DNA from: Rhodoferax sp.
Lineage (GTDB): Bacteria > Pseudomonadota > Gammaproteobacteria > Burkholderiales > Burkholderiaceae_C
Length of the DNA: 45,242 bases
Assembly: GCA_016790475.1 (NCBI GenBank)
Contig: JAEUOX010000074.1
Coordinates: 1-45,242 of the forward strand
Reading direction: 5' to 3'
Position numbers and translations under genes: made by a program. The notes under the pieces are model-generated. The model was not told where the DNA came from. It searched no databases and saw only the letters and a list, made by a program, of their open reading frames with translations. Shown in pieces: positions 16,472 through 27,170 of this stretch. Numbering within the stretch: the stretch's first letter is position 1; each line of letters opens with the position of its first letter.

Positions 16472-18601
16472 GTGAACACGGTGTCCCACACCCCTGCCGA
16501 CGGCCTGCGCCGGGAAGACGACGCGCTGCTGCGCGGTCAGGGCTTTTACGTGCACGACGTGGATCTGCCCGGCGCCTGGCACGCGGCGTTTGTCCGCAGT
16601 GCCCACGCGCATGCGCGGCTGCAGGCCCTGCACCTGCGCGATGCCCGGGCCTTGCCCGACGTGCTGGCGGTGTACGCCGGCCAGGATCTCGGCACGCAGA
16701 ATTTGCCCGCTATCAACCCGCTGCTGCCGCTGCTGGACACCGACGACTTCCCGCTGCTGGCTGATTCGACGCTCGCCTATGTCGGCCAGCCGGTGGCCAT
16801 CGTGGTCGCGCGCACGGCCCAGGCGGCCCGGGCGGCGGCGGCCCAGGTCCGCATGGATGTCGAGGAACTGCCGCCGAGCGCGGCATCCGGTACCGCGCAG
16901 CCGGCCACCCGCGTCGTCCACCAGGCGGGCGAGCCGCCGGCCTCCGCGCCCGTTCAGGTGCAGGCCGATCTGCAGGTGCCCCGCGTCGTGGCGATGGCGA
17001 TGGAGCCACGGGCCTGCGTCGCGCAGTGGCAGCCGGACCACCAGCAGATGACGGTCTGGCTCGGCACGCAGACGCCTTCCCGCGCGCAGGCCGACATCGC
17101 CGCCGCGCTCGGGCTGGACACCGCCCGGGTCCGGGTCATCTCCCCGGATGTCGGTGGCGCCTTTGGCTCCAAGGCATCGGTCGGGCCGGAGGATCTTCTG
17201 GTGGCGCTGGCCGCCTGCCGTCTGCAGGGCGCGGTGCGCTGGGTGTCCAGCCGTTCGGAGGATTTCCTGGCCGGCATGCATGGCCGGGGCGCGCGCCTGC
17301 AGGGGACGCTGGCGCTGGATGCCGAAGGCCGCTTCCTCGGGCTTTCCGCTCGCCTGTCGTTCACGCTCGGCGCCTGGCTGCCGTTCTCGGCGGTGGTGCC
17401 GCTGCGCAATGCCGCACGCATCCTGCCTGGCCCCTATCGCGTGCCCCACCTGGATGTCCAGGGGCAGGCCCGCCGCTCCCACGCCGCACCGGTCAACATC
17501 TACCGCGGCGCCGGGCGGCCGGAGGCCGCATTGCTGATGGAAACCCTGGTCGACGAGGCGGCCCGCGCGACCGGCATCGATCCGGTGGAGCTGCGCCGAC
17601 GCAACCTGATTCCGGCATCGGCGATGCCCTACCGGACGCCCACCGGCGAGAGGCTGGATTCCGGCGACTACCTGCTGGCGCTGGAGCGGGCCTGCGAGCG
17701 CTTCGGCTATGCCGCGGAACGGGCGCAGCAGCAGGCACGGCGCGACGCGGGTGCGCTGCTGGGCATCGGCGTCGCGCTGTACATCGAACCCTGCGGCCAG
17801 GGCTGGGAGTCCGCCCGGGTGACGCTGCATCCCGACGGGCAGGCCACCGTCGCCAGCGGCGCACCGGCCCAGGGCCAGGGCCACGCCAGTACCTGGGCCC
17901 TGATCGCCGCAGAGGCCCTCGGCTGCGCAGCGGAGCAGGTCACCGTGGTGCTGGGAGACACCGCCCGGTGCCCGCCCGGCACCGGTGCCCTCGCCAGCCG
18001 CAGCACGGCAATTGGCGGCAGCGCCATCGTCCAGGCCTGCCGGGAAGCCCGGTCGCGGCAGCAAGCCGGCGAAGCCCTGCCGCTGACGGTGGACACCCGC
18101 TACACCGCGGCCGAGACCTGGAGCTACGGCTGCGTGATCGCCCGCGTGGCGATCGACTGCGACACCGGGCACCTGCAGGTGGAGCGCCTGGTCTGGGTCG
18201 ACGACGCTGGCCGCATCCTGCACCCGCTGCTGGCCCATGGGCAGCTGGTGGGCGGCGCGGCCCAGGGCCTGGGTCAGGCCCTGATGGAGCAGATGGTCTA
18301 TGACCCCAGCGGGCAGCTGGTGACCGGCTCGCTGATGGACTACGCGGTGCCGCGGGCGGCCGACATGCCGCCGATCGAGATCACGTCGCTGCACACCCCC
18401 AGCCCGAACAACCTGCTCGGCGCCAAGGGCGTCGGCGAAGCCGGCTGCATCGGCGTACCTGCTGCACTGATGAATGCCGCGCGCGACGCCCTGCAGCCCC
18501 TGGGCGCACCCGCGCTGCAACTTCCACTGACCGCCGAACAACTCTGGCGGGCCCTGTCTTCACTTCCCCGGAAACCTGACCATGCACTACAAGAAATCTG
18601 A
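16472..18601 (+). CDS. Xanthine dehydrogenase-family molybdopterin-binding (large) subunit
   Basis: A 709-residue molybdenum hydroxylase large subunit, shorter than the usual ~770-800. Seen in order: the N-terminal RREDDALLRGQGFYVHDV, PDVGGAFGSK, the active-site loop NIYRGAGRPEAA, QGQGHASTWALIAAEALG, STAIGGSA, and the catalytic glutamate in GAKGVGEAGCIG near the C-terminus. The loop matches the RGAGR type and not the CSFR loop of true CO dehydrogenase. Such enzymes insert water-derived oxygen into an electron-poor (often N-heterocyclic) ring or an aldehyde. After STAIGGSA about 50-60 family residues are missing. Start: GTG at 16472, or GTG at 16481; neither has a strong ribosome-binding site. 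It overlaps the next gene by 20 bp. Confidence 0.88.
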   Translation: MNTVSHTPADGLRREDDALLRGQGFYVHDVDLPGAWHAAFVRSAHAHARLQALHLRDARALPDVLAVYAGQDLGTQNLPAINPLLPLLDTDDFPLLADSTLAYVGQPVAIVVARTAQAARAAAAQVRMDVEELPPSAASGTAQPATRVVHQAGEPPASAPVQVQADLQVPRVVAMAMEPRACVAQWQPDHQQMTVWLGTQTPSRAQADIAAALGLDTARVRVISPDVGGAFGSKASVGPEDLLVALAACRLQGAVRWVSSRSEDFLAGMHGRGARLQGTLALDAEGRFLGLSARLSFTLGAWLPFSAVVPLRNAARILPGPYRVPHLDVQGQARRSHAAPVNIYRGAGRPEAALLMETLVDEAARATGIDPVELRRRNLIPASAMPYRTPTGERLDSGDYLLALERACERFGYAAERAQQQARRDAGALLGIGVALYIEPCGQGWESARVTLHPDGQATVASGAPAQGQGHASTWALIAAEALGCAAEQVTVVLGDTARCPPGTGALASRSTAIGGSAIVQACREARSRQQAGEALPLTVDTRYTAAETWSYGCVIARVAIDCDTGHLQVERLVWVDDAGRILHPLLAHGQLVGGAAQGLGQALMEQMVYDPSGQLVTGSLMDYAVPRAADMPPIEITSLHTPSPNNLLGAKGVGEAGCIGVPAALMNAARDALQPLGAPALQLPLTAEQLWRALSSLPRKPDHALQEI

Positions 18602-26317: not shown

Positions 26318-27170
26318 CTGGCGCTCGCTGGATCCGGCGGCGCTGGAGCGCGGCTACAACGCCCGCGCCACCGTGGCCGACGTCGATGCGGAGCTGCGCG
26401 CCTACCGCGAGGCATCGCTGCCGATGTACGACAGGCTGCCGTGCCAGCGGGACCTGGCCTACGGCCCCTCCCCGGACGAGACCCTGGACCTGTTCCCGGT
26501 CCCTGACGACCCGGCGGCACCGCTGCTGGTGTTCATCCATGGCGGCTACTGGCGCGCACTCGCCAAGGAGGACTCCGTGTTCATGGCCAGCCAGCTGGTC
26601 GGGCAGGGGATCGGCGTGGCCGCCATCAACTACACGCTGGCCCCCCAGGCCCGCCTGCCGCAGATCATCGACCAATGCCGCCGTGCCGTGGCCTGGCTAT
26701 ACCGGCAACGCGCAGCCGCGAGCGCATCGCCCGGGCCGCTGCTGGTTGCCGGCAGCTCGGCCGGTGCCCACCTGGCGGCGATGGTGCTGGCCCCCGGCTG
26801 GCAGGCGGCCCACGGCCTGCCCCCGCATGCCGTGCAGCGCGGCGTGCTGGTCAGCGGGCTGTACGACCTGGAGCCGGTGTCCCGCACACTGCCGCAGAGC
26901 TGGCTGCAGCTGACGCCGCAGGAGGTGCAGGAGTGCAGCCCCCAGCACCACCTGCCGGCAGGCACCTGCCAGCTGCAGGTCTTCGTCGCGGCGCAGGACA
27001 CCGCGGAGTTCAAGCGCCAGTCGCGGGACTACGCGCAGGCCTGCCGGGCGCAGGGCCATGCGGTGGACTTCCAGGAAGTCGCCAGCCGGAACCACTTCGA
27101 CATCATCCTGGACTGGATGCTGCCCGACACGGCGCTCACGCGCAGCGTTGCCGCGCTGGCGCGGGCCTGA
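26310..27170 (+). CDS. Alpha/beta hydrolase, kynurenine-formamidase-like (HGGYW motif)
   Basis: A 286-residue alpha/beta hydrolase. The HGGYW motif (residues 77-81) is the oxyanion-hole signature of animal/fungal-type arylformamidase. The nucleophile is Ser150 in AGSSAGAHL, and a likely catalytic histidine lies in SRNHFDIILDW near the C-terminus. The family hydrolyses N-formylkynurenine and other aryl formamides or esters. Together with the 3-hydroxyanthranilate dioxygenase upstream this suggests removal of a formyl (or acyl) group from an aminoaromatic intermediate. The start is a GTG inside the last codons of livF (8-bp overlap); no ATG is available before the conserved region. Confidence 0.82.
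   Translation: MSDWRSLDPAALERGYNARATVADVDAELRAYREASLPMYDRLPCQRDLAYGPSPDETLDLFPVPDDPAAPLLVFIHGGYWRALAKEDSVFMASQLVGQGIGVAAINYTLAPQARLPQIIDQCRRAVAWLYRQRAAASASPGPLLVAGSSAGAHLAAMVLAPGWQAAHGLPPHAVQRGVLVSGLYDLEPVSRTLPQSWLQLTPQEVQECSPQHHLPAGTCQLQVFVAAQDTAEFKRQSRDYAQACRAQGHAVDFQEVASRNHFDIILDWMLPDTALTRSVAALARA

Follow-up and report, generated by a model that had tools for sequence, protein, structure and literature searches.

We analysed the window, a 45,242-nucleotide stretch of contig JAEUOX010000074.1 from the Rhodoferax sp. assembly GCA_016790475.1 (the assembled genome is 89.8% complete), in which an importer operon is joined to genes for 3-hydroxyanthranilate 3,4-dioxygenase (HAO), a lyase of the dihydrodipicolinate synthase (DHDPS) superfamily and a three-subunit molybdenum (Mo) enzyme. 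Open reading frames and family calls confirm the same-strand cluster and the divergent LysR gene that a first-pass annotation of this DNA had described, with the correction that the same-strand genes, at 16472–27170, number eleven and not ten. The features are as follows.

15436..16362, minus strand: LysR-family regulator (PF00126 and PF03466), divergent from the operon.
16363..16471, no strand: presumed promoter/operator in the divergent intergenic region, from the coordinates of both gene starts.
16472..18601, plus strand: molybdopterin-binding large subunit (MoL) of the xanthine-oxidase family, GTG start (PF01315, PF02738, PF20256); proposed ring-cleavage semialdehyde oxidase, from its mutual exclusion with a dedicated aldehyde dehydrogenase.
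18582..19562, plus strand: DHDPS-superfamily class I lyase (PF00701); proposed hydratase-aldolase.
19590..20093, plus strand: 2Fe-2S small subunit of the Mo enzyme (PF00111, PF01799; Fer2/Fer2_2).
20093..21013, plus strand: FAD medium subunit of the Mo enzyme (PF00941, PF03450; FAD_binding_5).
21010..21618, plus strand: HAO (PF06052; TIGR03037 and PRK13264 over cut-off; 1yfu alignment; active-site residues).
21710..22876, plus strand: periplasmic substrate-binding protein (SBP) of LIV/urea type (PF13458, Peripla_BP_6), scoring under the curated cut-offs for urea and for leucine.
22952..23872, plus strand: ABC permease 1 (PF02653, BPD_transp_2).
23869..24849, plus strand: ABC permease 2 (PF02653, BPD_transp_2).
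24846..25601, plus strand: ABC ATPase 1, LivG/UrtD-like, best models below their cut-offs.
25598..26317, plus strand: ABC ATPase 2, LivF/UrtE-like, best models below their cut-offs.
26310..27170, plus strand: alpha/beta hydrolase with an HGGYW motif (by sequence) and GTG start; possible aryl-formamidase or esterase from its PDB matches, accessory.

With the gene starts chosen here, seven of the ten junctions overlap (by 20, 1, 4, 4, 4, 4 and 8 bp) and the other three are gapped (27, 91 and 75 bp), which bears out the earlier description of mostly overlapping genes for those seven. The large, FAD and 2Fe-2S subunits of the Mo enzyme are all present with xanthine-oxidase family domains, the large subunit having the MoCoBD/Ald_Xan_dh_C domains. 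The importer, comprising the SBP, two permeases and two ATPases in one operon, has the architecture of LIV/HAAT (branched-chain/urea) ABC systems, and the proposal that the cluster combines import with degradation is supported.

That the HAO cleaves the ring of 3-hydroxyanthranilate (3-HAA), as first proposed from the DNA alone, is strongly supported by sequence. The window HAO exceeds the cut-offs of both curated models (217.4 bits against 145.95 for TIGR03037, and 234.7 against 220 for PRK13264) and aligns with the C. metallidurans enzyme 1yfu over 170 residues with 249 bits. Six residues (R47, H51, E57, H95, R99 and E110 in C. metallidurans numbering) are conserved in 68 of 68 cluster HAOs, window included; we take H51, E57 and H95 to be the iron ligands and R47, R99 and E110 to be substrate residues.

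The predicted structure of the lyase (pLDDT 93.8) is a barrel of the DHDPS/N-acetylneuraminate lyase (NAL) type, and the Schiff-base lysine, K185, is kept in 34 of 34 lyases. A fold search did not discriminate among DapA, NAL and other aldolases, which were tied. The lyase differs from the superfamily's hydratase-aldolases and keto-acid aldolases (the NahE/PhdJ type, and NAL and DapA, the latter two compared by structure) in its identity of only 18–24% to the top solved members, in a GKQxE motif (34 of 34) where DapA has GTTGE, and in the tricarboxylate substrate proposed for it; the altered pocket would suit a larger polycarboxylate. DapA proper, that is 4-hydroxy-tetrahydrodipicolinate synthase, was ruled out by the motif and by a score of 65.2 bits against the curated DapA model, whose cut-off is 206.15.

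With the lyase as sole query, relatives in 300 Burkholderiales genomes fall into two clean groups, orthologues of 59–71% identity (nine genomes plus the window's own) and paralogues of 35–40%. An alignment of ten orthologues, used as query, recovered at least 80 named loci, the best 80 of 554 candidates encoding a relative, and the matches listed span Comamonadaceae, Sphaerotilaceae, Alcaligenaceae and Alphaproteobacteria including Ruegeria and Roseobacter. These 80 and six further loci form an 86-locus set, all retrieved by the lyase alone. Its counts leave out L025–L027 (on contigs shared with L076, L079 and L080) and the paralogue loci L034–L036, and L117 and L122 (both Phaeobacter), L118, L119 and L198 stand outside it; many of the 86 are cut by contig ends, and counts throughout this work treat related genomes as independent. 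HAO is present in 68 of the loci, the Mo large subunit in 65, its FeS and FAD subunits in 42 each, LysR in 45, aspartate dehydrogenase in 40, SBP in 27, TctC-type binding proteins in 24 and the hydrolase in 19. Of the 57 loci with at least 4 kb available on both sides, 46 have HAO and 43 have the Mo subunit. The genes are grouped more than chance would give. Hydroxylase, dioxygenase and importer do travel together in relatives, the complete ten-gene set from MoL to ATPase 2 occurring in 15 of the 86 loci and being joined by the hydrolase in nine of these.

The cluster is also carried on plasmids. Those of Chelatococcus and Paroceanicella hold LysR, Mo subunit, lyase, HAO, ABC importer and aspartate dehydrogenase genes. 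In one Phaeobacter strain the plasmid (L117) carries kynU, transporters, LysR, aspartate dehydrogenase and lyase, and another strain additionally has HAO adjoining an aldehyde dehydrogenase. The Sinorhizobium plasmid L198 has the lyase, HAO, aspartate dehydrogenase, aldehyde dehydrogenase and ABC genes. As a separate observation, the paralogous DHDPS-family lyases (35–40% identity) lie in other Burkholderiales at L012–L024 and L034, and genes for a separate Mo large subunit and FeS protein lie close to the one at L034, so that the pairing of Mo enzyme and lyase may recur with other substrates.

The lyase is a partner of HAO. In one draw of 300 Burkholderiales genomes, HAO (matches below 70 bits not counted) occurs in 9 of 10 lyase-positive versus 11 of 290 lyase-negative genomes (Fisher 3e-11), and it occurs in 43 of the 44 genomes reached via the lyase, the window's own included; because of these two results we consider that the enzymes belong together. 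Pooled, 51 of 53 lyase-selected genomes have HAO, the exceptions being G100 and G327, and in several Rhodobacteraceae it lies in the genome outside the retrieved lyase locus.

After HAO, the cluster replaces the textbook route. Textbook-type HAO clusters (L120, L121, L195 and L197, as annotated) place beside HAO an amidohydrolase, which by context is ACMS decarboxylase (ACMSD), the enzyme that follows HAO in the textbook route, and contain a 2-hydroxymuconic semialdehyde dehydrogenase, a RidA protein and FAH-family enzymes, with an aldolase and an acetaldehyde dehydrogenase in two of them. With the Variovorax amidohydrolase as query, an ACMSD orthologue (53–69% identity) was found in 1 of 50 lyase carriers versus 8 of 11 lyase-free HAO genomes (Fisher 5e-7; G340–G342 are not in this count), and 15 further lyase carriers have ACMSD relatives of 27–35% identity only. 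No orthologue was found among the 86 loci, and the window's own genome, at its stated completeness, gave no match at E 1e-30. Likewise, 2-hydroxymuconic semialdehyde dehydrogenase is over cut-off (TIGR03216, E 1e-180) in 6 of 53 lyase carriers versus 5 of 8 ACMSD genomes, and this aminomuconate/2-hydroxymuconate semialdehyde dehydrogenase model has no match at that threshold in the window's own genome. It is because both enzymes are rare in lyase carriers and common in other HAO genomes that we regard the textbook steps as replaced. HAO is present twice in G311, the sole ACMSD-positive carrier: beside ACMSD on contig C103, and with the Mo subunit on C180. On C103 (78642–80159) ACMSD is split over two frames and the adjoining HAO has an internal stop, so this is a decaying or misassembled textbook pair; the C180 cluster is intact-looking and of the new type. 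Three HAO genomes (G143, G180 and G211) have neither a lyase nor an ACMSD orthologue.

A tree of 50 HAO sequences, which covers part of the HAO loci (L068, L070, L072, L078, L108, L028, L029, L033 and L165 were left out as too short or without the anchor motif for trimming), changes cluster type twice, compared with a mean of 11.6 in shuffled trees and with none of 500 shuffles as low, although the type partly tracks taxonomy: the alphaproteobacterial rows are all of lyase type and the textbook rows are all Betaproteobacteria. Among Betaproteobacteria alone, the rows of lyase type, 23 in number, still fall into a single starred group (95/83).

The family of the Mo enzyme does not reveal its substrate, and gene context is more telling. 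The Mo gene is missing from 21 of the 86 loci, 16 of which keep HAO beside the lyase (a few of the 21 are truncated at contig ends). Mo-free clusters of Bordetella, Variovorax (two), an uncultured betaproteobacterium, Phaeobacter and Sinorhizobium instead have aldehyde dehydrogenases of one group, directly 5' of the lyase in L072 and L081, some kilobases off in L099 and L109, and plasmid-borne in L122 and L198. These six share 64–89% identity with one another and about 32–35% with the textbook-type 2-hydroxymuconic semialdehyde dehydrogenase of L120. Genome-wide, the dedicated aldehyde dehydrogenase, counted at 62% identity or more (a line set after the gap to the next value, 53%, was visible), occurs in 7 of 17 Mo-negative versus 0 of 35 Mo-positive carriers (Fisher 1.5e-4), Mo-negative meaning no Mo subunit match at E 1e-120 (17 of 52 carrier genomes). 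At the locus level, an aldehyde dehydrogenase of any queried kind is found in 6 of 21 Mo-free versus 1 of 65 Mo-containing loci. Because this exclusion looks like functional replacement, the Mo enzyme probably oxidises a semialdehyde.

Taken together, we judge it probable that the cluster encodes an importer and an ACMSD-independent lower pathway for 3-HAA. The importer would take up 3-HAA, a kynurenine or a precursor. HAO, with the strong sequence support given above, opens 3-HAA to 2-amino-3-carboxymuconate semialdehyde (ACMS), a compound that cyclises spontaneously to quinolinate. The exclusion described above suggests that the Mo enzyme would oxidise an aldehyde, most likely ACMS to 2-amino-3-carboxymuconate, and that the dedicated aldehyde dehydrogenase would take this role in Mo-free carriers. 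From its fold, its lysine, the carbon balance and its partner genes, the lyase may then form a Schiff base with the C2 imino or keto acid, hydrate C4=C5 and split the C3–C4 bond by retro-aldol cleavage, which would release iminosuccinate (or oxaloacetate) together with malonate semialdehyde. The earlier suggestion that the lyase acts on a ring-opened keto acid agrees with this, as do its partnership with HAO and K185. The balance of the lyase step is exact (C7H7NO6 + H2O = C4H5NO4 + C3H4O3), and the C4 and C3 products fit because the partner genes for aspartate dehydrogenase and the CoA-acylating methylmalonate-semialdehyde dehydrogenase (MMSDH) match them. The aspartate dehydrogenase homologue of most carriers examined would convert iminosuccinate to aspartate and retain the nitrogen; in the window's own genome, which lacks one over the cut-off, iminosuccinate would hydrolyse to oxaloacetate. 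A CoA-acylating (methyl)malonate-semialdehyde dehydrogenase could yield acetyl-CoA. Of the 53 lyase carriers, 45 have an aspartate dehydrogenase over cut-off, versus 1 of 8 ACMSD genomes, and MMSDH is over cut-off near HAO or the lyase in L028 and L033. Aspartate dehydrogenase as a universal part of the route was rejected, being below cut-off in 8 of the 53 carriers, the window's own genome among them.

Everything after ring opening is predicted chemistry, and in its full form we advance it only tentatively: a decarboxylation-free 3-HAA route of Beta- and Alphaproteobacteria in which a Mo enzyme or aldehyde dehydrogenase would oxidise ACMS before it cyclises, a new DHDPS-family hydratase-aldolase would release iminosuccinate and malonate semialdehyde, and aspartate dehydrogenase would save the nitrogen as aspartate.

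Several observations weigh against this route. The lyase motif replaces the Thr-Thr of DapA with Lys-Gln, and the DapA tyrosine is not found at the aligned place; we take both to be catalytic in DapA, and these differences mean that DapA-like chemistry is not transferable unchanged. The closest solved relative of the Mo large subunit is a quinoline hydroxylase, quinoline 2-oxidoreductase (1t3q, 363 bits), followed by CoxL (347 bits), all of them distant, and Rhodobacteraceae loci carry the Mo subunit without recognisable FeS or FAD partners in the locus. Neither Mo enzyme nor dedicated aldehyde dehydrogenase is found in 10 of the 17 Mo-negative carriers, which leaves the replacement argument incomplete. 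Aspartate dehydrogenase is also over cut-off in all three HAO genomes that have no lyase and no ACMSD orthologue and is hence not specific to lyase carriers, and in the window's own, incomplete genome there is none over cut-off, only two weak fragments (56 and 48 bits). The aldehyde dehydrogenase line placed after the fact, the relatedness of the genomes counted and the taxonomic component of the HAO tree belong here as well, as does the different Mo large subunit (37% identity) directly beside HAO in the Burkholderiales genome G180 (L217 15638–18537), one of those with neither lyase nor ACMSD orthologue; this arrangement is perhaps a further variant. On the alphaproteobacterial side, the Mo large subunit adjoins the lyase, with no FeS or FAD gene recognisable in the locus, at L091, L103, L104, L107, L110 and L114.

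The best of the alternatives reverses the order, such that the lyase would act on ACMS itself to give iminosuccinate or oxaloacetate and malondialdehyde, and the Mo enzyme or aldehyde dehydrogenase would oxidise the smaller aldehyde. This accounts equally for the mutual exclusion of the two oxidising enzymes and for carriers with neither gene, and the dedicated aldehyde dehydrogenase has its best score, though below cut-off, with a succinate-semialdehyde model. However, the spontaneous cyclisation of ACMS would favour early oxidation, and the G180 Mo gene adjoins HAO even without a lyase; we regard the reversed order as unlikely, if still the most serious competitor to ACMS oxidation ahead of the lyase.

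The first-pass annotation had placed the Mo enzyme at the head of the route, hydroxylating an imported N-heteroaromatic compound whose ring would then be opened, with the HGGYW hydrolase deacylating the product to a 3-HAA-like acid for HAO to cleave. The 363-bit match of the Mo subunit to quinoline 2-oxidoreductase and the distant similarity of the hydrolase to kynurenine formamidase speak for this order of events, but neither the initial hydroxylation nor the deacylation is supported. The Mo gene is missing from the 21 loci and 17 of 52 carrier genomes noted above, seven of which have the dedicated aldehyde dehydrogenase that no Mo-positive carrier has. The hydrolase, whose PDB matches are Lipase 1 (117 bits) and then kynurenine formamidase 4e11 (89 bits) and which falls below the cut-off of the HaHSL model (147.8 bits against 320), is peripheral, occurring in only 19 of the 86 loci, and the window's own genome has a standard KynB formamidase over cut-off on another contig. 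The same two facts weaken it as a candidate for a missing kynurenine formamidase. In addition, kynureninase and putative nitrobenzoate-type genes could supply 3-HAA without any heteroaromatic compound, and we consider attack on a heteroaromatic improbable. Still less probable is a route through quinolinate, in which ACMS would cyclise, the Mo enzyme would hydroxylate quinolinate at C6 and the lyase would act on a later ring-opened product: Mo hydroxylases of the xanthine-oxidase family act on pyridine carboxylates, and 6-hydroxyquinolinate is the lactam of 2-amino-3-carboxymuconate, so that the two readings converge, yet an aldehyde dehydrogenase is not expected to stand in for ring hydroxylation and nonetheless excludes the Mo enzyme.

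3-HAA, as the substrate of the lower pathway, has several likely sources. Kynureninase lies inside the retrieved loci L080, L081 and L088 and 9 kb from the lyase on the Phaeobacter plasmid L117. A search of 45 carrier genomes and 14 well-known control genomes, with no non-carrier Burkholderiales among them, put it over cut-off in 34 of the carriers (the window's own genome being one) and in 2 of the controls. Tryptophan dioxygenase and kynureninase adjoin each other in the window's own genome (L182 5958–10950, contig C257), where they stand behind genes for a two-cupin-domain protein, an FAH-like protein (by reading) and a flavin-reductase-domain protein. On the Sinorhizobium mexicanum plasmid (L198 4960–12015), genes for a PnbB-family protein, an FMN reductase and a flavin reductase precede the lyase, HAO, aspartate dehydrogenase and aldehyde dehydrogenase, making this a possible 2-nitrobenzoate cluster feeding the new lower route. 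PnbB is the name of 4-hydroxylaminobenzoate lyase, and the PnbB-family and flavin-reductase genes are putative counterparts of the nitroreductase and mutase pair through which 2-nitrobenzoate is converted to 3-HAA (PMC5817917).

In ten loci (RidA counted) the cluster adjoins a further catabolic block. In L052, the only one scanned in full, this comprises benzoate-CoA-ligase-like and salicylyl-CoA hydroxylase-like enzymes (both below cut-off, the latter gene truncated where the locus stops) together with an acyl-CoA dehydrogenase and an enoyl-CoA hydratase, which we take to be an anthranilyl-CoA pathway.

The nearest known systems are the nba/onb-type (2-nitrobenzoate) and bacterial kynurenine lower pathways, which run through HAO, ACMSD, aminomuconate semialdehyde dehydrogenase, deaminase, decarboxylase, hydratase, aldolase and acetaldehyde dehydrogenase. 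The bacterial 3-HAA lower route described in PMC5817917 (onb) likewise runs through ACMSD. The present cluster shares with them the HAO start on 3-HAA, and their clusters may also hold importer or LysR genes; it differs in that 49 of 50 carriers have no ACMSD orthologue and 47 of 53 have no 2-hydroxymuconic semialdehyde dehydrogenase over cut-off, and in having instead a Mo enzyme or another aldehyde dehydrogenase, a DHDPS-family lyase and often an aspartate dehydrogenase. The Mo enzyme has its three-subunit architecture and domains in common with quinoline 2-oxidoreductase and CO dehydrogenase-like enzymes, whereas it is proposed to oxidise an aldehyde, and some alphaproteobacterial clusters have the large subunit alone among recognisable partners in the locus. 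In agreement with the view that no described pathway has this gene set, we recognised, among the matches listed by searches of open-licence PMC papers, none that links HAO to a DHDPS-family lyase or to a Mo enzyme, and the cluster looks like another form of 3-HAA meta-cleavage.

Tryptophan breakdown, NAD synthesis and nitrobenzoate degradation all meet at 3-HAA. The second route out of it that is predicted here has its genes in Comamonadaceae, in marine Rhodobacteraceae, in a Sinorhizobium and on plasmids. If the prediction is true, the kynurenine pathway would gain a new branch point at 2-amino-3-carboxymuconate. It also provides testable functions for four families whose annotations are vague or misleading: the xanthine dehydrogenase family, the dihydrodipicolinate synthase family, NAD-dependent succinate-semialdehyde dehydrogenase and aspartate dehydrogenase.

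Convergent with the operon, at 27213–32507 on the minus strand of the window, lie genes that by sequence reading encode a 216-aa thioredoxin-fold/isomerase-like protein, HMG-CoA-lyase-like and D-2-hydroxyacid-dehydrogenase-like proteins and a biotin carboxylase, a block that looks like leucine-type catabolism.

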